From: Pelagibius sp. CAU 1746
GTDB lineage: Bacteria > Pseudomonadota > Alphaproteobacteria > Kiloniellales > Kiloniellaceae
Reading direction: 5' to 3'
DNA: 63,109 nt
Assembly: GCF_039839785.1 (NCBI RefSeq)
Contig: NZ_JBDOQT010000003.1
Location: 1-63,109 of the forward strand
Part shown: piece by piece, positions 24,769 through 63,109 of the stretch
How the letters are laid out: each line of letters starts with the position of its first letter
How positions within the stretch are numbered: the first letter of the stretch is position 1
Notes under the pieces: generated by a model
The model's input: only the letters and a program-made list of their open reading frames with translations
Told to the model about the DNA's origin: nothing
The model's database searches: none
Position numbers and translations under genes: made by a program

Positions 24769-25473
24769 ATGCAGCAGAAGATCAAGCGGTTCTACAAACA
24801 GGTTGCCGCCGCGCCGGCGGAAGGCGGCTATGCGGTGGAATTGGACGGCCGCGCGGTGCGGACGCCGGCCAAGGCCCCGCTGGTGGTGCCGTCGCGCGCA
24901 TTGGCGGAAGCGGTGGCCGCCGAGTGGCAGGGCCAGGGGGAGGATGTGCTGCCCCAGGCCATGGCGCTCAACAGCCTGGTCTGCACCGCCATCGATATCG
25001 TCGCGCCGCACCGCCCGGCGATCGTCGAGGAGGTGGCCAGCTACGGCAGCCACGACCTGCTGTGCCACTGGACCGATGAAACCGGAGAACTGCTGCGCCG
25101 CCAGCAGCGGCTTTGGCAGCCGCTGCTGGACTGGGCCGCCGAAGAGCTGCGCGCGCCGCTGAAGAAAACCTGCGGGATCATTTCACAGCCCCAGTCTCCG
25201 GAGAGCCTGGAGGCCCTGAAGCTGGCGGTGGAGGAGCACAGCGACCTGGAACTGACGGGCCTGGCGGCGGCGGTGAAAGCGGCGGGGTCCCTGCTTGTCG
25301 GCCTCGCCCTTTCCAAAGGGCGCATCGACGCCGCCCAGGCGGTGGCCCTGTCGCAACTCGACGAACTGTATCAGGCGGAGAAGTGGGGTACGGACGCCGA
25401 GGCGTCGGAGCAGCGCGCGAACCTGGCACGGGAGCTGGAGGATGCCGCTCTTTTGTTTGATCTTATTAGATAA
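24769..25473 (+). CDS. ATP12-family F1-ATPase assembly chaperone
   Basis: ATP12 binds the F1 alpha subunit before alpha/beta hexamer assembly; bacterial members are nearly limited to alphaproteobacteria. The N-terminus KRFYKQVAAAPAEGGYAVEL and LDGRAVRTPAKAPLVVPSRA are characteristic, as is HDLLCHWTDETGELLRRQ. 234 aa, full length. It is eight bases after the AsmA gene. Confidence 0.92.
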   Translation: MQQKIKRFYKQVAAAPAEGGYAVELDGRAVRTPAKAPLVVPSRALAEAVAAEWQGQGEDVLPQAMALNSLVCTAIDIVAPHRPAIVEEVASYGSHDLLCHWTDETGELLRRQQRLWQPLLDWAAEELRAPLKKTCGIISQPQSPESLEALKLAVEEHSDLELTGLAAAVKAAGSLLVGLALSKGRIDAAQAVALSQLDELYQAEKWGTDAEASEQRANLARELEDAALLFDLIR

Positions 25474-25497: not shown

Positions 25498-26424
25498 TTA
25501 TGATATTTCTTTCGTTGCTAATGGCTCCTGTGAGCCTCGCATCATGACTTCGGCCAAGGTCCCGTAGACCTTGGCCCAGGCCTGCTCCACCTCCGGAGTG
25601 AACGCTTCCTTGAGGCCTTCTTTCAAGGTCCACAACAGGGCCTTGGCGACGCTCTCGTAATGCTTGAACTCGACCCCGTAGGTGAGGTGGCGCTGGCCCA
25701 TGATCTTCAGCACCGGCACCAGCTGATCGAACTTGTCGAGACTGGCGATGGCAGTCTTCAAGACGCTCATCAGCTTGTGGCCCTGATCGGCCATGTCGCC
25801 CTTGAACAGCGTCTGGGTGCTGGGGTCGATCTCGAACAGCTTGTTGTAGAAGAGGCCGGCGGCGGCGTCGGCAATGGGATCGACCAGGGCGAAGCTCTCC
25901 TGCACCAGCGCGATCTCCTTCGCCGAGAGTTGCGGAGCCGCAACCGTTTGCGCCGGAGGGGGCGGTTCGCCGGGAGCGCTTGCTTCGCCGGGAATGCTCG
26001 CCTCGGCCGGCGGTGCGGCGGGGGCGGCTTCGGGGGCACGGGGCGCAGCGAAGGCGCTTGACGGGACCGCGGTCGCGGACAGATCCCTTTCCGTCAGTTC
26101 CGCCAGGCGCTCGATACGGTGGGTCAGGCTGTCGGCGATCTCGGCGATCTCGCCGGTGGTCTTTGCGGTCTGTCCGGCCAGTTGCTTGACCTCACCGGCC
26201 ACAACCGCAAAGCCGCGGCCGGCCTCACCGGCGCGGGCCGCCTCGATGGTGGCGTTGAGAGCCAGCAGGTTGGTCTGCTTGGCGATGGCTTCAATCTGCC
26301 CGGCCATGGCGGCCACGTTCTCCACTTCGCTACGCAAAGCCTGAATTTGCGCCGCGATACCCTCTTCTTCCTGGGCTTCGTCGGTGATCTGCGGCGCTGC
26401 GGCGCGGGTAGGGGCTGCGGGCAT
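25498..26424 (-). CDS. Soluble chemotaxis-signalling hairpin fused to a C-terminal globin
   Basis: Two parts are clear. Residues about 20-115 are the tip of a methyl-accepting chemotaxis protein signalling domain, with [20 protein letters not shown] and [19 protein letters not shown]. After an Ala/Pro-rich linker (about 118-165), residues about 166-297 form a globin with Phe207 in LFKGD (CD1) and His246 in MGQRHLTYG as the likely haem ligand (F8). There is no transmembrane segment or HAMP domain. Known globin-coupled sensors such as HemAT have the globin first; here the order is reversed and the signalling part is much shortened. No che genes are near. 308 aa. It likely senses oxygen or NO, but the output is unknown. 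Confidence 0.88.
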
Positions 26425-26628
26425 GGAGGGTTTTCCTGCTTGGAACTGTGAGTTGGCGAGGCACCTTGTGGGATTCCTTGAGCCTTTGTAAGGAAACGCC
26501 GTTAACGAGTGGCTAATTCCGCGGGTTTCGGCGGCCCCGGCATCCTCCCGGCCGCTGGTGCGGTCGGTTCGCTCGTGCTATCAGCAATCGCAACGATCAG
26601 GCCGGGGACTGAGCAGGGAAGGCGCGCC

Positions 26629-28161
<1,533 letters not shown>

Positions 28162-54203: not shown

Positions 54204-54363
54204 CCGGGGAGTTCGCCGGCCCCGGCGGCTGGACGCGGCATGAGGCGCTGGCCGCCGGCCGGGCGAAGGTGATAAAGACTGCGCAAGGGGCGTTCGCCGG
54301 TGCCCTGAGGCTGCGTGAGGAAGAGGCGCCGGGCAGGTGCCGGCGCCGTATAGGACAGCAAAG

Positions 54364-56991
54364 ATGAGCGACGAGCCAAACAGCCGTGGCGGATCCACCA
54401 GCCGGTTCGGATCCGGCTCCGGTGGCGACTACGGACAGGGCGGCATTTTCGAGCCCGGCAGCCTGATCAGTTTTACCTACGAGGTAGAGGCGCTGCTGGC
54501 CCGCGGCGGCATGGGCGAGGTCTACCGCACCCGCCACACCGAGATCGGCACCGAGCACGCCATCAAGATCGTGCGGCCCGACCTGGCCAACAACGACAAG
54601 ATCATGGAGCTGTTCCGCCGCGAGGCCTCGGTCCTGCGCACCGTGCGCGATGACGCCATTGTCGGCTACGACGGTGTGCTGCGCGACGAGGAAGGGCGGG
54701 TCTACCTGGTCATGGAATTCGTCGACGGGCCGTCGCTGACCACCTTCATCGAAGACCGGGTGCTGACCCTGGAGGAGGTGCGCCACCTGCGCGACCGCCT
54801 GGCGCGCGGACTGGCCGCCGCCCACGACAAGGGCGTCATCCACCGCGACATGTCGCCGGACAACATCATCCTCGGCAACGGCGACCTGGCGCAGGCCAAG
54901 ATCATCGATTTCGGCATCGCCAAGCTGGCCGACTCCTCGGCCACCACCATCATCGGCGACGACTTCGCGGGACGCTACGCCTATGCCTCGCCCGAGCAGA
55001 TCGGTCTCTACGGCGGCCAGGTCGATGTGCGTTCGGACATCTACAGCCTGGGACTGGTTCTGGCCACGGCGGCGACAGGCAAGGCTCTCAATATGGGAGA
55101 GATCAGCGAGTCCCTGGTCTCGGTGATCGAGGCGCGCAAGCGCGTTCCGGATTTCAGTTCGGTACCGGAGGAACTCCGCCCGGAGCTTGGCTCCATGCTG
55201 GAACCGGATCCCGCGGACCGGCCGCAGTCTATGCGCGACGTCGTCGGCCTGGATCAAAAACTGCGCGAGGCGGAGGAGCGGGCGGTCCTGGAGCGCAAGG
55301 CGGCCGCAGCCGATCAGGCCGCCGCTGCCGCGCCTCAGCCGGCCCTGGCTGCCGAGCCGGCGGCGCGTCCCGCGGCGGCTTCGCAGGGGAAGCGGACGTG
55401 GTTGGTGCCGGCGATGGCCGCGGGCATCGCGGTGGTCGCGGCAGGTGGTTATTTCGCATGGCACCAGAGCGCACAGTCGCCCGAGGCCCCGGTTGCCCAA
55501 GCTCCCGTTGCCCAAGCTCCCGTTGCCCAGGCGCCGGCTTCCCAGGCACCGGCCGAACCGTCTGCGGCACCTGCGGAGCCATCTTCTCAGCCGACGGCCG
55601 TGGCCGAAGCGCCGGCGGCAGCGCCGACGGAAGTGGCTGCGCTGGACAGCGGCGAAGTCGCTCCGGCTTCCGGCCCGGCGCGGACGGAGGAGCAAGAGGC
55701 GGCGGAGCGGGCTGCAGCCGAGGCCCGGCTGGCGGCCGAAGAGGCCCGGCTTGCCGCTGAAGCCAGGGCTGCTGAAGAGGCGGCGGCTGCCGAGGAAGCG
55801 CGGCTTGCCGCCGAGGCGAAGGCCGCGGAGGAAGCGCGCCTCGCTGCTGAGGTGAAGGCCGCGGAGGAGGCCAGACTTGCCGCCGAGGCGGAGGCTGAGG
55901 CCAGGGCCGCGGAAGAGGCGCGGCTTGCCGCCGAAGCGAAGGCTGCAGAAGAAGCCAGGGCAGCCGAAGAGGCCCGGCTAGCCGCCGAGGCTGAGGCCAA
56001 GGCCGCGGAAGAGGCGCGGGAGGCCGAAGAAGCCCGGCTTGCCGCTGCGGCGGCCACGAACGACGTGGCAGCGGCATCCGCTGCGCCGGCGGAGGAACAG
56101 GTCGCGGCCTTGCCCGAGCCTTCGGAAGCCGAGAAGCAGCTAGAGAAGCTGAAGGCGATCGAGGCGGGGCTGTCGGAAGAGGAGCGCCGTGAGGTGCAGC
56201 GCGACCTTCGGGCCTTGGGGCACTACAGCGGCGGCATCGACGGCAGTTTCGGGCCCGGCACCAGAGACGGGATAATTTCCTATCAAAGGGTGGCGGGCGC
56301 CGATCCCACCGGATATCTGCTGCCCGAGACCCGCAGTACCCTTGCTGCCGCGGCCGAGCCGCTGCGCGCCGAGGAGGCCCGGCGGGCCGCTGAAGCCAAG
56401 GCGGAGGAGAAGGCGTCAGCCCAAGCGGCGTCGCTGCAGGCCGCGACGGAACGCGCGGCGGCGGAGAAGGAAGCCGCCGAGCAAGCGGCGGCCCGGGCGC
56501 GGGCGGCGGCGCAGACCCGCGCGGCTCCCGCGGGAACTTCCCTGCAGGCGGCGCTGCCCAACGAGAGCGAGTTCGACCGTGTCATGCGGATGGCGGAAGC
56601 CGGCGATATGCTGGCCCAGGCCAACCTCGGTCAACGCTACTATCGCGGCCGGGGCGTGGGTAAGGATCTCGGGGAGGCGGTCCGCTGGACCCGCAAAGCT
56701 GCCGAACAGGGTGAGCCCCGCGCCCAGTCCAATCTGGGGTTCTACTATATGAACGGTGAGGGGGTCGGCCGGGATCCGGCCGAAGCCGCCCGCTGGTGGC
56801 GGGCCGCGGCCGACCAGGGGCTGGCGCAGGCGCAGTTCAATTTGGGCCTGCTCTACGAACAGGGCCAGGGGGTGGCCGCGGATTACGCCGAGGCGGCCAG
56901 GTGGTACGCCCTGGCGGCGGAGCAGGGCGACCGCAATGCGGCGACCCGTCTGGACGGCCTGAAGCGGCGCAATCTGATCCCCGGCGGTTAA
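54364..56991 (+). CDS. Transmembrane Ser/Thr protein kinase with coiled-coil, PG-binding and Sel1 parts
   Basis: Residues about 38-300 are a eukaryotic-like kinase: GGMGEVYRTRH (P-loop), Lys68 in HAIKIV, HRDMSPDN (160-167, where the usual Lys after HRD is Ser), and DFG at 182-184. A membrane helix lies at about 346-365. Outside are a Pro/Ala linker with AQAPV repeats, an Ala/Glu coiled coil of EEARLAAE repeats (about 440-570), a PG_binding_1-like domain (VQRDLRALGHYSGGIDGSFG) near 620-660, a second coil and three or so Sel1 repeats at about 765-870. 875 aa. Likely senses the envelope and signals inward. The last gene of the trio with FHA-cyclase and PP2C. Confidence 0.92.
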   Translation: MSDEPNSRGGSTSRFGSGSGGDYGQGGIFEPGSLISFTYEVEALLARGGMGEVYRTRHTEIGTEHAIKIVRPDLANNDKIMELFRREASVLRTVRDDAIVGYDGVLRDEEGRVYLVMEFVDGPSLTTFIEDRVLTLEEVRHLRDRLARGLAAAHDKGVIHRDMSPDNIILGNGDLAQAKIIDFGIAKLADSSATTIIGDDFAGRYAYASPEQIGLYGGQVDVRSDIYSLGLVLATAATGKALNMGEISESLVSVIEARKRVPDFSSVPEELRPELGSMLEPDPADRPQSMRDVVGLDQKLREAEERAVLERKAAAADQAAAAAPQPALAAEPAARPAAASQGKRTWLVPAMAAGIAVVAAGGYFAWHQSAQSPEAPVAQAPVAQAPVAQAPASQAPAEPSAAPAEPSSQPTAVAEAPAAAPTEVAALDSGEVAPASGPARTEEQEAAERAAAEARLAAEEARLAAEARAAEEAAAAEEARLAAEAKAAEEARLAAEVKAAEEARLAAEAEAEARAAEEARLAAEAKAAEEARAAEEARLAAEAEAKAAEEAREAEEARLAAAAATNDVAAASAAPAEEQVAALPEPSEAEKQLEKLKAIEAGLSEEERREVQRDLRALGHYSGGIDGSFGPGTRDGIISYQRVAGADPTGYLLPETRSTLAAAAEPLRAEEARRAAEAKAEEKASAQAASLQAATERAAAEKEAAEQAAARARAAAQTRAAPAGTSLQAALPNESEFDRVMRMAEAGDMLAQANLGQRYYRGRGVGKDLGEAVRWTRKAAEQGEPRAQSNLGFYYMNGEGVGRDPAEAARWWRAAADQGLAQAQFNLGLLYEQGQGVAADYAEAARWYALAAEQGDRNAATRLDGLKRRNLIPGG
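55690..56050 (+). repeat. Alanine/glutamate coiled-coil repeat region in the kinase gene
   Basis: The DNA encodes irregular repeats of EEARLAAE and AKAAEE with unit lengths of about 8-11 codons. The GC-rich triplet repeats are imperfect, so they are visible at protein level more than at DNA level. The predicted result is a long helical stalk in the periplasm. Confidence 0.7.
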
Positions 56992-58291: not shown

Positions 58292-58762
58292 CTTTACGAA
58301 TTTCGGGGACCGCGTCCGCGGCCGGTCTGTGGCCGGGATTTTTCTTGTCCGAAGCCACAACCTTAGCAAGAAAAACTAAAATACAAGACGCTGCCTGGTC
58401 TGCCTCTTTCAGCCTATGGGTCAGCTCTGGGACACCACTACCGATCTCCGGTCGATCACAGGAGTGTCACAACACCGTTAACGGGTTTGGCCGTTGAATT
58501 TAATATTTCCTAATAAAATCCACCGTTTCAAGCCATCAATCCTTACTTGGCCCTCCTGCCTGTTAACCATAAGAGTATCAAACCTCATACATAATAGCAT
58601 GTGATTTAATCGAACCTTTCTTGTAAATGCCACACGATTCCCACAGACTGCCGACGCCTTGAATAAGGCGTTCGCGTACAGCGCGAAACTGGGGTCAATT
58701 AGGACCGTGTTCCTTGCGGTCAGCGTCTGCAATGGGGGCAAGGCGCCAAACGGAGATGGGTA
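58292..58762. other. Non-coding leader of the giant protein gene
   Basis: About 470 bases without a gene. It contains the palindrome CCGTTAACGG (58475-58484), an AT-rich patch (58491-58520), TTAACCAT (58563-58570, identical to the CtrA half-site), and two adjacent hairpins: ACGCCTT-GAAT-AAGGCGT (58654-58671) and TTCGCG-TACAG-CGCGAA (58671-58687), which share one base, about 75-110 bases before the start codon. No promoter elements could be fixed. Confidence 0.55.
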
Positions 58763-61700
58763 ATGACGGACGATCTGCAGCGCGGCAACGAACAGGTCCA
58801 GAGCGAGAACGACCAGGCGACCGAAGGCGGCTCCCCCGAGACCAGCTATGGGCGCGGTGACTCGATGGTGGCCCTCGGCCAGGCCGAACCTGCGCTGGTG
58901 GTGGCGCGGCCGGCGGCCGGTCAGACCGTGGTGCTGGACACTGCGCCGAACCAGACCGTTGTGCTGAATTTCGACCCCGCTTCGGCTCAGGTTCAGGTGG
59001 AAGAGGGCAATCTGGTCCTCGGGTTCGACGATGACGGCGATGGCAGCGTCGACAGCCGTATCGTGTTCTTGGACCTGGCCGCGCAAGACGGCGAGACAGC
59101 TACCTTCCAGATCGGCGGCGCCGAGATCGATTCCACCCTCCTGGTCAATCAGGCCCTGGCTCTTGCCGGCCAGCAGGAGGCGCCGCTCGATGAGGTCGCC
59201 GCCGGCCCCGGTGCGACCGGTGGCGGCGCCAGCGCCTATGACGACAATCTCGGCAGCATCCTGGATCTGCTGGTTGCCCAGGGCGTGATTCCGCCGACCG
59301 CGCTGCAATTTCGCCTGGTCGAACTCGAAGACGATCCGACCGCCTTCGACGACGCCGATGGCGTGATCGCGCTGACCTTCGAGACCGTCACCGAGGGTGG
59401 CGAGGGCTTGGTCGGCACCTTCGGCGGCGGCTTCGAGGACTGGCGGCCCAACCAGGACGACTGCGACGGCCCGACCGCGCCGATGCAGATTTTCGTGGGC
59501 TTCACGCCCGCCGATAACGAGGAACTCGTCTCTCTGACGCTGTCCGGTATTCCGGCGGGCGCCGTCCTCTATGTCGGCGGCACCGGTCCGGCCAACATCG
59601 TCGACACCAGTGGCGGTACCTCGCCGCTGTTGACCCCGGCGGACCTGGCCTCGGGCCTCTATCTGCTGCCCCCCGCGGACAGTGGCGACGACATTCCCCT
59701 GACGGTAACGGCGACCATTTCCGATCCGGACAGCGGCGACACCGCCGTCATTTCCGGTTCCGCCACCGCGATCATCGATTCCGTCGCCGACAACCCCTTT
59801 GCCCAGTTCGACGGTGCGGTCGAAGGCGGCGAGGGCTGCGAGGGCGGCGAGGGAAGCACCGGCGCCAGCGACGCCGAGATTGAGGCTTTCCTCGGCCTGA
59901 CCAGCGGCGCTCTGGATGATGCCGCCAATGACGGCTATGGCGGCAATGGCGAGGAAAACGCCACTGACGGTTCGGCCATCAAGACCTCCCTGGAACTCCA
60001 GGAAGGCGACCACGTCGAGATGACCTTCAATTTCCTTGATGCGGAGGGCAGCGGCACCGGCGCCAACTTCCAGGACTTTGCCTTTATCACAGTGAACGGC
60101 GAAGTTTTCCGGATCGCCAACGTCGGCGATTCCAACGATTCGACATCGGCGGCCTACATCGCCCCCGGAATTTCCCTGTCCTGGGACCAGGAGTCCGGCT
60201 ACTTCACCCTCTCGGTGGACGTTGAAACTGCCGGCACCTACGAACTCGGCATCGGTGTGATGAACGAGGGCGACACCAGCGTCGATTCCGCTCTGCTGGT
60301 TGACAACCTGATCGTGACCCGCGGCGAAGACACCATCTTCGAGGACGATTTCACCTCTTTCGGCAATTGGGAAGTCGTCGGCGGCGGCTTCGTCGCCATT
60401 GTCGGTGATGTGAACACTAACGAGGACATGCCGGGCGCCCCCAGTCAGGGTTTGCTGGTCGCCACTGGTGATTTCGATCCCTCGGCCTGTGGCTGCGAGA
60501 TCATCACCTCCTATCTGAGCTACAACGAAGACAACGGTGCGCCGCTGGGCGATGGCCCGGTCAGCGTTGCGGTGCAGCTGCCCAACGATAGCCAGGGTGG
60601 CGGCGACTACGACGACTGTCCGGTCGACCGGGAGCCGATTTTCGGCGCCGGTTTCGTTGCCGGCGTGACCGACAGCGACGGCTCCGAGAGCCTCACCAAG
60701 ATCGTCATTTCGACCTACGCAGAGGCGGAGCCCGGCGGTAACGATCCGCAGGGCCTGGAAGTCGCGCTGTCGGGCGTCGACGATCCGGCTGCCACCAACT
60801 TCATGGTCGGCGAGCAGGTGCTGGTCGACGGCGACACAGTTCAGGTGGTCGCCACCTTCGCCGACGGCTCCACCGGTCTGGCCACGGCCACGATCGAAAT
60901 CGCCGACGGTGATCTCACCCTGGTCTTCGATGCCGCCGACCGCGTGCAGTCGGTCGACCTCTCCGGTGACTCCGACACGCCCTTCCAGGTGCGTCTGCCG
61001 CAGCACAGCGACGACGACTTCCAGCTGAACCTGGAGGTGACGGCCACCGAATTCGATATCGACGGCGAACTGGCTCTCGAGAACAACCAGGCGACCCACC
61101 AGGCGGTGTTGAATGTCGAGGTCAAGGCCGTGGCCGACGGCGCCGGCCTGAACGTCGACGGCGCGACGATCGACTTCGTCGAGGACGGGCAGGCTGATCC
61201 GGCGCTGCACGGCGACGATGCCGGCGAGAGCAATCTGATTATCCCTCTCGACATGCTGCAGGCCGATCTGATCGACCAGGACGGCTCCGAAGGCATCACC
61301 CAGTTGAAGATCGATCTTCAGGGGGCGGATGCCGGCGCCATGTTCGTCGATGCCGGGGGTAACCCCCTGGGCGCCGAGCTGGAGGTTCCGGTCGAGGGCG
61401 GCACGGTGACCGCCCAGGTTCAGGTCGTCGGCGACAGCCTGATCCTGACCTTCGACGGCAACGAAACCGCCGGACTGGACATCGATGTTTCCGGCCTGAT
61501 CGGCGTCAAGCTGCCGATCGACGATTCCGACGACTTCACGGTGAAGTTCCAGGCGACCACCACCGAAGTGCATCCCGAAGGCGATGTCGCTTGCGAGTCC
61601 AAGACCACGGAGACCAGCTACGACGTGCACGTCGGCGGTGTCGCGGGCCCGGCGGCCGTTACCTTTGGCTCCTACGACAACTTCCCGGGCTGCGACGAGC

Positions 61701-63109
61701 CGCAGTTGGACGGCAACACCCTGACCCTGTCCCTTTTCGAGGACGGTCAGGCCGCGGTCGTTGACCAGGGCGGCGAGGGCGGCGATGCCGGCCCGCAGAT
61801 CGTGCCGATCTTCTTCTCCGCGGCGCCCCAGGATGCCGACGGCTCCGAGAAGATCACCCAGGTGAAGCTCAGCCTCGAAGGTGCGCCGGAAGGCACGGCC
61901 TTCGTGTCCGGCGGCCTGCCGTTGGAAGCGGGCGACGAGGTTGCCGGCGGCACGGTCTCCTTCGAGGACGGCGCCTTGGTGCTGACCTTCGGCGCTCCGG
62001 GCCTGGACTCCGTCGATCTTTCGGCCATCGGCGTTGAGGTGCCGCAGCACTCGGACGACGATTTCTCGATCCAGATCAAGACTACGACCACTGAATACGA
62101 CGATGACGGCGTCAACCCGGCGGTCGCGACCCACGACACGGACGCCACCATCAACGTGAAGCTTGACGCGGTCGCCGACCCGGTGACGGTCTCGATCGAC
62201 GCGGTCAGCAGCAACGGAGGCGACGAGGCCTTTGCGCCGGGCGAGGCCGGCACGGTGACGGTCGATGCGACCTTCGGCGACTTCGAGGATGGCTCCGAAC
62301 TCCATACGGTGACGGTGGATATCCCCGAGGGCTTCACGGTGACCGACCTGGCCGGCGGTACGCCGGACGGTGTCGCGGGCACCGTGACCTGGACCGTGAC
62401 CGGCAGTAGCTTCCAGGCTGTGCTCGGCGTTCAGGCCAACGAAGGCCTGACCGAAGACGAGACGGTGATTTGGGAGGCCGAGGCCAAGGCCGTCGAGCAG
62501 AACGAAAACACCGGCGGCGGTGAAGGCGACGCGGAGTGCACCACCGGGAACAACGTGGCCACGGCGACCGCCGAGGATGACGTGACGCTGGATCCGGCGC
62601 TTCCGCCGACGATTGACGTCGACCTTGAGGGCAACGAGGCCTGCGTCAAGGAAGACGGCACGCTTGAGTTCGACATCACGGTGGCCGCCGAGGCGGGCAG
62701 CGACGACGTGCTCGACTCGGTGACCTTCGGCCAATTCCAGGCCCTGCAGGCCGCGGGCTGGACCGTGGACGTGGACGACAACGGCGCGGGCGGCAGCTTC
62801 GATGCCAACTTCCTCTACACGGCCGACGGTACGGACCAGTCGGTGGTGTTCACGGTGACCCTGACGCCGCCGGCGAACAGCGACGTCGACGTGTTCGGCG
62901 AGCTGGGCGCGGACCTCTCGGTCTCGGCGACGGTGGCCGATCCGCACAGCGGCGACACCGCCTCCAGCGGCCCGGTCGTCATCGATGTGAACGTCGATGC
63001 GGTTGTTGACGGCTCGGAGGTGACGCAGACGGGCGCGGCCTCGGGCGACGAGGACACGGCGATCGACCTGAACCTGGCGATTGCGCTGGGCGGCGACAGC
63101 ACGACGGGC
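58763..63109 (+). CDS. Giant acidic repeat protein, probable type I-secreted adhesin (partial)
   Basis: From the ATG at 58763 (MTDDLQRGNEQVQSENDQAT, after CGGAG) the frame is open for 1,449 codons and leaves the window. There is no signal peptide. The N-terminal part (VVLDTAPNQTVVLNFDPASA, DDNLGSILDLLVAQGVIPPT) resembles the start of BapA/LapA-like proteins. Then come Ca-binding-style, Asp/Gly-rich units of about 172-176 aa. SDDDF-type motifs begin at 60995, 61511 and 62039, and DxDGSE-IT-type motifs occur between them, as in cadherin-like repeats. The end, where a type I secretion signal would be, is not visible. Confidence 0.82.
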   Translation, partial: MTDDLQRGNEQVQSENDQATEGGSPETSYGRGDSMVALGQAEPALVVARPAAGQTVVLDTAPNQTVVLNFDPASAQVQVEEGNLVLGFDDDGDGSVDSRIVFLDLAAQDGETATFQIGGAEIDSTLLVNQALALAGQQEAPLDEVAAGPGATGGGASAYDDNLGSILDLLVAQGVIPPTALQFRLVELEDDPTAFDDADGVIALTFETVTEGGEGLVGTFGGGFEDWRPNQDDCDGPTAPMQIFVGFTPADNEELVSLTLSGIPAGAVLYVGGTGPANIVDTSGGTSPLLTPADLASGLYLLPPADSGDDIPLTVTATISDPDSGDTAVISGSATAIIDSVADNPFAQFDGAVEGGEGCEGGEGSTGASDAEIEAFLGLTSGALDDAANDGYGGNGEENATDGSAIKTSLELQEGDHVEMTFNFLDAEGSGTGANFQDFAFITVNGEVFRIANVGDSNDSTSAAYIAPGISLSWDQESGYFTLSVDVETAGTYELGIGVMNEGDTSVDSALLVDNLIVTRGEDTIFEDDFTSFGNWEVVGGGFVAIVGDVNTNEDMPGAPSQGLLVATGDFDPSACGCEIITSYLSYNEDNGAPLGDGPVSVAVQLPNDSQGGGDYDDCPVDREPIFGAGFVAGVTDSDGSESLTKIVISTYAEAEPGGNDPQGLEVALSGVDDPAATNFMVGEQVLVDGDTVQVVATFADGSTGLATATIEIADGDLTLVFDAADRVQSVDLSGDSDTPFQVRLPQHSDDDFQLNLEVTATEFDIDGELALENNQATHQAVLNVEVKAVADGAGLNVDGATIDFVEDGQADPALHGDDAGESNLIIPLDMLQADLIDQDGSEGITQLKIDLQGADAGAMFVDAGGNPLGAELEVPVEGGTVTAQVQVVGDSLILTFDGNETAGLDIDVSGLIGVKLPIDDSDDFTVKFQATTTEVHPEGDVACESKTTETSYDVHVGGVAGPAAVTFGSYDNFPGCDEPQLDGNTLTLSLFEDGQAAVVDQGGEGGDAGPQIVPIFFSAAPQDADGSEKITQVKLSLEGAPEGTAFVSGGLPLEAGDEVAGGTVSFEDGALVLTFGAPGLDSVDLSAIGVEVPQHSDDDFSIQIKTTTTEYDDDGVNPAVATHDTDATINVKLDAVADPVTVSIDAVSSNGGDEAFAPGEAGTVTVDATFGDFEDGSELHTVTVDIPEGFTVTDLAGGTPDGVAGTVTWTVTGSSFQAVLGVQANEGLTEDETVIWEAEAKAVEQNENTGGGEGDAECTTGNNVATATAEDDVTLDPALPPTIDVDLEGNEACVKEDGTLEFDITVAAEAGSDDVLDSVTFGQFQALQAAGWTVDVDDNGAGGSFDANFLYTADGTDQSVVFTVTLTPPANSDVDVFGELGADLSVSATVADPHSGDTASSGPVVIDVNVDAVVDGSEVTQTGAASGDEDTAIDLNLAIALGGDSTTG

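Follow-up and report, generated by a model that had tools for sequence, protein, structure and literature searches.

The usual account of chemoreceptor signalling is a conformational path that runs from the sensor through the HAMP domain and the methylation helices to the tip. Among soluble receptors, TlpD of Helicobacter pylori has its hairpin first and its sensor last, and the globin of HemAT belongs to the Protoglobin family. Trimer contacts and the determinants of CheA and CheW binding are located close to the hairpin tip (PMC4692393), and for TlpD a long coiled coil, a zinc-binding sensor and a kinase interface more than 140 Å from the ligand site are reported (PMC12871147). Globin-coupled sensors are presented in a 2026 review as proteins with an N-terminal globin and a C-terminal output, with HemAT of B. 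subtilis and of H. salinarum, GCSBh and Atu1027 as validated aerotaxis members (PMC13401364). In the HemAT type, a globin of the protoglobin type comes first and the signalling domain lies behind it (PMC13401364, PMC8466855). A different class of globins is represented by HGbI and HGbRL of Methylacidiphilum infernorum. In HGbI, Tyr B10 and Gln E7 lie at the ligand and the affinity for O2 is very high; the Lys E10 of HGbRL is able to coordinate haem, and HGbRL is reported from Methylacidiphilum alone (PMC4476040).

The protein analysed here combines features of these systems in a different layout. Like HemAT of B. subtilis and MCP514 of A. fabrum, it is a soluble protein that joins a haem globin to an MCP region and is probably O2-responsive, but its hairpin comes first, its globin scores below the Protoglobin cut-off and it has no adaptation helices; the N-terminal globin and C-terminal output of a globin-coupled sensor are not found in it. 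It shares with TlpD an N-terminal hairpin, a C-terminal sensor and the lack of a membrane helix, but has only about six heptads and a floppy linker. HGbRL is likewise a two-domain globin protein, but with the globin first and a Roadblock/LC7 domain attached (PMC4476040).

Results and Discussion

The window, by which we mean the whole stretch of 63,109 nucleotides analysed (Pelagibius sp. CAU 1746, contig NZ_JBDOQT010000003.1), carries the fusion gene between what we take to be an ATP12-like chaperone gene and a gene for an acyl-CoA carboxylase subunit (Table 1). An NCBIfam scan of the former returned no match. The latter matched TIGR01117 below the cut-off of that model and, as the family match starts only at residue 45, its true start may be further in. 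Among the neighbours scanned, no che gene was recognised adjoining the fusion gene in the window. Elsewhere in the window we noted a protein kinase of 884 residues with Sel1 repeats and a peptidoglycan-binding domain (54337-56991, plus strand), and an open frame of 1489 residues without a Pfam match at 1e-5 (58478-62947, minus strand), which may be spurious and arise in GC-rich DNA.

Table 1. Location of the fusion gene, its parts and neighbours, and of related loci in other contigs and genomes.
Feature	Position	Strand	Remarks
Fusion gene, 308-aa hairpin-linker-globin protein	25498..26424	minus	ATG start
Antiparallel helical hairpin, residues 23-118	26071..26358	minus	helices 23-64 and 66-118 in the AlphaFold2 model
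Hairpin tip motif of 17 residues, residues 50-66	26227..26277	minus	
Flexible Ala/Pro-rich linker, residues 119-167	25924..26070	minus	pLDDT <50 at 123-137 and 139-150
Globin, single-domain flavohaemoglobin type, residues 168-299	25528..25923	minus	block-mean pLDDT 94-98
Haem-pocket residues			Tyr193 (B10), Phe207 (CD1), Gln214 (E7), Lys217 (E10), His246 (F8)
Intergenic stretch toward pccB, divergent	26425..26508		AGGA 9 bases ahead of the ATG
ATP12-like chaperone gene (presumed), flanking	24769..25473	plus	convergent with the fusion gene
Acyl-CoA carboxylase carboxyltransferase subunit (pccB/mmdA-like)	26509..28161	plus	divergent from the fusion gene
Opposite-order gene, G252	L154 2977-3756 (= L237 7977-8756)		
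Opposite-order gene, G344	L123 1531-2238		
m1-type MCP of the window genome	L004 1021-2580 (G000 C1:1554414)		relatives L252-L263
Standalone globin and two MCP genes, window genome	L074 5598-12544 (G000 C1:2169000-2183000)		
G172 loci	L227, L228, L229, L145		

Pfam placed MCPsignal at residues 12-113 (E 7.3e-26, 91.5 bits, cut-off 34.6) and Globin PF00042 at residues 192-294 (E 1.5e-15, 58.1 bits, cut-off 22). An earlier note on this DNA, made from the sequence alone, had read an MCP hairpin followed by a globin; the profile search bears out both this order and the globin nature of the C-terminal part, and the tip motif, Phe207 and His246 are located where the note had them. The absence of a membrane helix, a HAMP domain and full methylation helices, also claimed there, agrees with the analysis. 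The highest 19-residue Kyte-Doolittle mean is 1.17 and falls within the globin, which makes a membrane helix unlikely, and Pfam gave no HAMP match up to E 1. The MCPsignal profile is covered only at positions 10-111 of 172, and the hairpin arms, with about six heptads in the N arm and 7.5 in the C arm, end at residues 23 and 118; judged by length and profile coverage, methylation (adaptation) helices are not accommodated. To our knowledge, arms of about six heptads are shorter than those of any other receptor, and they may pair weakly.

The protein has a conserved hairpin tip as in other MCPs. All 17 positions of the tip motif are invariant across an alignment of ten of the twelve fusions of the order (two double-globin fusions being excluded), and the motif deviates in some fusions beyond this alignment (G338, G126). 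The 90-residue receptor chain 4jpb_B matched the protein at residues 30-106 and the 85-residue chain 3ur1_C covered the same tip stretch; both are presumably T. maritima receptor fragments made for receptor-CheA-CheW crystals. The linker that follows is, as described before, rich in Ala and Pro (59%). Across the 18 hairpin-first fusions, linkers contain 30 to 73% Ala+Pro and are about 20-70 residues long, the lengths being approximate owing to a fixed rule applied to motif positions; this range, together with the varied layouts described below, is as expected of a tether. In the AlphaFold2 model, built from a 32-sequence alignment, the linker has no structure, and the continuous coiled coil that connects sensor and tip in a TlpD-like receptor is missing. 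The pTM of 0.53 leaves the relative placement of hairpin and globin undefined in this model.

The globin was assigned by several comparisons. It reached 13.4 bits with Protoglobin, under the cut-off of 25, and thus falls outside the globin family of HemAT. The best PDB sequence matches were HGbRL (3wfw) and Hell's Gate globin I (HGbI; 3s1i, 3ubc), followed by neuroglobins and flavohaemoglobins, with matches of the MCP half interspersed. The top PDB match in Foldseek was O2-bound Hell's Gate globin I (TM 0.93 by target length, 1.1 Å), and the site-swapped fold of HGbRL fitted the model poorly (TM 0.46, rank 29). The features of the HGbI/HGbRL group, i.e. a 3/3 globin with Tyr B10, Gln E7 and His F8, are present, and Lys E10 is shared with these closest globins as well, the helix labels being assigned by comparison with HGbI (PMC4476040). 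The NCBIfam model of NO-inducible flavohemoproteins matched over the globin with 71.9 bits, far under its cut-off of 432. The designation as a reversed globin-coupled sensor, proposed in the earlier note, therefore does not apply to a globin that is below the Protoglobin cut-off and closest to the Hell's Gate globins.

Tyr193, Phe207, Gln214, Leu218 and His246 are invariant in all 21 fused globin domains (from 18 fusions, three of them with two globins), and Lys217 is found in 20 of them. Since these pocket residues are also present in most of 44 other such globins, they mark the globin type and not the fusion. Shared pocket residues and the properties of HGbI and HGbRL together suggest that the fused globin is likely to bind haem and O2.

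The hairpin-first fusion was found in at least 18 genomes. A search at the level of the order (61 genomes) yielded 12 bearers, namely seven members of the genus of the window, G011 and all four genomes of a genus of another family, two of them with tandem globins. The eighth genome of the window's genus (G004; 91% complete, 320 contigs) has CheA, and the fusion was not found in it. At least seven bearers were present in a class sample of 385 genomes that included the one of the window, which added G242 (tip-globin-globin), G172, G338 (tip-tip-globin), G145, G126 and G103. In this sample, the best six candidates per genome were scored and the fusions of G103 and G126 were recognised on reading the loci; a 262-residue frame in G175 was left out, and all fusion counts are lower bounds. 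Among the 18 loci listed from a phylum sample of 398 genomes, for which the best five candidates per genome were scored, the window's own was the sole hairpin-first fusion. A scan of genome contigs with one protein as the query gave nine loci, of which the one fused locus belongs to Pelagibius marinus, already counted within the genus. No fused copy was seen on plasmids: the 19 plasmid records with a match all covered less than 80% of the query, and the 19 listed places fall on the globin half.

The relatives of the two domains occur in five layouts: tip alone, tip-globin, tip-globin-globin, tip-tip-globin and globin-tip. G252 and G344 carry the opposite order, in which a globin is followed by a linker of about 37 residues and the same minimal tip (235-259 aa, the frame of G344 terminating early). 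In the window's family, two sister genera encode standalone tips of 112-195 aa (13 genomes, L039-L051), and two more were found in other families (L266, L267), which brings the overall size range to 111-195 residues. The same globin type is also joined to an MCP region in globin-PAS-MCP proteins (L052, L053, L054; PAS by Pfam) and in globin-MCP proteins from genomes outside the class (L151, L152). Unlike the fusion, these five proteins have the canonical order and a full MCP region, with 796-1058 aa.

A frameshift or an assembly artefact was ruled out as the source of the fusion, given that the same architecture recurs at the same place in six other genomes of the genus and also in eight other genera. 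The ATP12-like gene and pccB flank the fusion in all seven bearers of the genus, so that the six other orthologues have the identical pair of neighbours. Within the genus, tip and globin are under purifying selection (dN/dS 0.03-0.42 and 0.02-0.35, respectively, in all 21 pairs of the seven members), and the linker diverges fast (0.14-1.02 in the 15 computable pairs, six being saturated). The missing adaptation helices, and the fact that no adjoining gene in the window was recognised as a che gene, would fit a degenerate relic of a soluble chemoreceptor that is currently functionless. Purifying selection on both domains, the position kept in seven of eight genus genomes and the retained tip and pocket residues speak against such a relic, which we consider very improbable.

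In a tree of the hairpin, 67 tip regions were compared over 86 columns. They included 33 minimal tips (19 from the 18 fusions, 13 standalone and one of opposite order, G344 being excluded) and, from the window genome, eight of its 17 other MCP matches plus a soluble receptor that we call the m1 type. One branch with 97/86 support set the 33 minimal tips apart, the bootstrap being not fully settled. The minimal tips together with 13 m1-type soluble receptors were split from 21 other MCPs with 100/100 support, a separation of full MCPs from the rest for which the program warns that long branches meet; several fused tips also sit on long branches. The m1-type MCPs of the window genome and 12 relatives are hence the nearest kin of the minimal tips in this tree. 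In the 13 genomes read, they are 463-529 aa long and have the hairpin ahead of a strongly conserved C-terminal domain of about 150-190 residues, to which Pfam gave no name in the one copy scanned. They share with the fusion the hairpin-first order and a C-terminal domain, but possess longer MCP arms. As the order is already present in the m1-type proteins, the hairpin-first arrangement probably pre-dates the arrival of the globin.

The earlier note had further regarded the protein as truncated. This description fits the layout only, because the tip groups with standalone tips and with the m1-type hairpin-first receptor. Derivation from a truncated HemAT was ruled out by the globin family and the tip phylogeny, and neither half looks to be derived from a HemAT-type protein. 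For the fused globins, a single origin was not rejected (p-AU 0.228) in a poorly resolved globin tree, from which G046 (no match) is omitted.

The genome of the window contains CheW, CheR and a CheA (C1:2346774) whose domains are Hpt, dimerisation, ATPase, CheW and receiver; it also has six matches to flagellin and 17 further MCP matches to the fusion protein. The argument for another signalling partner that the earlier note drew from a window free of che genes therefore carries little weight. A second, standalone globin gene of this genome lies within about 1.5 kb of two tandem MCP genes (Table 1). CheA and CheW were detected in 15 of the 18 hairpin-first bearers and in both opposite-order genomes, and CheA in all four standalone-tip genomes tested. 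The bearers represent the genus plus eight other genera.

In the three remaining bearers, G172, G103 and G011, neither CheA (PF02895) nor CheW (PF01584) was found, and a CheA-free mode is therefore possible. G172 is 98% complete in 20 contigs and lacks a CheR or flagellin match as well; CheW is without a match in nine of the eleven genomes of its family. Taken together, these results make the absence look real. The fusion was not found in the other ten genomes of this family. The fusion of G172 has an intact tip, and three further loci carry MCP matches, one of which is broken up into two adjacent frames, so that either a recent loss of chemotaxis or another partner for the tip can be the cause. 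G103 is a draft genome with flagellins and without CheR, and G011 a draft of 87% completeness with flagellins and a CheR-like match; in both, a che operon may lie on one missing contig. As G003 and G126 likewise gave no flagellin match despite the presence of CheA and CheW, a flagellin miss alone is a weak sign.

These genomes raise the question of CheA-independent signalling, in which the tip would be a dimerising or partner-binding coiled coil that addresses another kinase or regulator. Some gene neighbourhoods, which vary outside the genus, would be compatible with it. A HisKA gene, which also has a CxxCH motif and whose frame halts inside the ATPase part, begins 5 bases past the tip-globin gene of G126 (L148 2746-4847). 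All nine genomes of one sister genus have the standalone tip divergent to the same neighbour gene, which in the single copy scanned (L047 6625-8517) encodes a PAS histidine kinase, and the gene that follows the globin-tip gene in G252 (L237 8846-9640) has a weak receiver-domain match below the Pfam cut-off. Other neighbours are a nucleoside 'Gate' transporter gene (Pfam, one copy each), divergent to the fusion of G028 and likewise to the standalone tips in 4/4 genomes of one genus, and, at the fusion of G172, an acyl-CoA dehydrogenase gene upstream and a standalone protoglobin gene 86 bases downstream. No che gene was recognised among those neighbours of fusions and tips that were scanned. Together with the intact tip in G172, these kinase and receiver genes favour an alternative partner; the retention of CheA and CheW in most bearers, the remaining MCPs of G172, which fit a recent loss of chemotaxis, and the draft state of G103 and G011 argue against it. 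We hold CheA-independent signalling to be rather unlikely.

The reading that we prefer, and to which we give about an even chance, is that of a soluble gas-sensing accessory of the chemoreceptor array, which would act on CheA and CheW through its tip. It agrees with the suggestion in the earlier note of a soluble protein that may modulate arrays, which is plausible in view of the recurring domain order and the frequent presence of CheA and CheW. Two hairpins would pair to form the usual four-helix bundle, and the paired hairpins would dock by their tip on CheA/CheW or among receptor dimers. The globin would bind O2, and possibly NO, through its Tyr B10/Gln E7 pocket. Since a flexible linker cannot transmit a rigid signal, the ligand should act through the self-association or crowding of the globins, either of which would be altered by the ligand state. 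This would change the number of hairpins in the array, or their pairing, and the kinase activity would shift without methylation adaptation. The conserved tip, the conserved pocket, the loose tether and the swappable order point to docking plus local action and not to rigid transmission. Points against this reading are the three bearers in which CheA and CheW were not detected, which fit it worst, the failure to recognise a che gene among the scanned neighbours, the short arms, and G004, in which CheA occurs but no fusion was seen.

A label with a cargo would also fit the flexible linker and the independence of domain order. The hairpin might merely be an address by which a globin that binds O2 or detoxifies NO is stationed at the array, where this globin would buffer or remove the gas locally and send no signal. 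The nearest globins, those of the flavohaemoglobin/Hell's Gate group, are in line with this idea, as is a putative link to a FAD-dependent gene of the DAO family 0.5 kb downstream of the fusion in G242. On the other hand, Pfam found no reductase domain in the fusion protein, no reductase gene was recognised adjoining its gene in the window, and standalone tips without any globin are kept in 13 genomes of two sister genera. Because such globin-free tips are conserved, the tip apparently serves some purpose by itself, and we regard a parked globin without signalling function as improbable.

Conclusions

Soluble receptors with the sensor last, such as TlpD, and globin-MCP sensors are already known. 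What appears to be new is the layout, the globin class, which is not that of HemAT, and the minimal signalling part, with a putative function. In the literature search, from which subscription journals were mostly outside, no title or abstract opening named a hairpin-first globin protein. The differing orders and copy numbers among the relatives suggest a plug-in gas-sensing accessory. More broadly, and only tentatively, the hairpin tip may be a freestanding plug-in module of the Alphaproteobacteria that is used alone, doubled or tied to a globin in either order, that docks gas sensors by a tether and that in some lineages has a partner other than CheA.

A natural protein with no more of a receptor than the tip, joined to a haem globin by a disordered linker, and with relatives of varying order and copy number, makes it testable whether docking alone tunes a receptor array. 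If the proposed function is true, an O2 or NO input would be added to the array without built-in adaptation. What a receptor tip contributes when it lacks its sensor or its kinase is a further question, prompted by the standalone tips and by the bearers in which CheA and CheW were not detected, and the fusion itself offers a minimal natural scaffold for studies of CheA/CheW binding.
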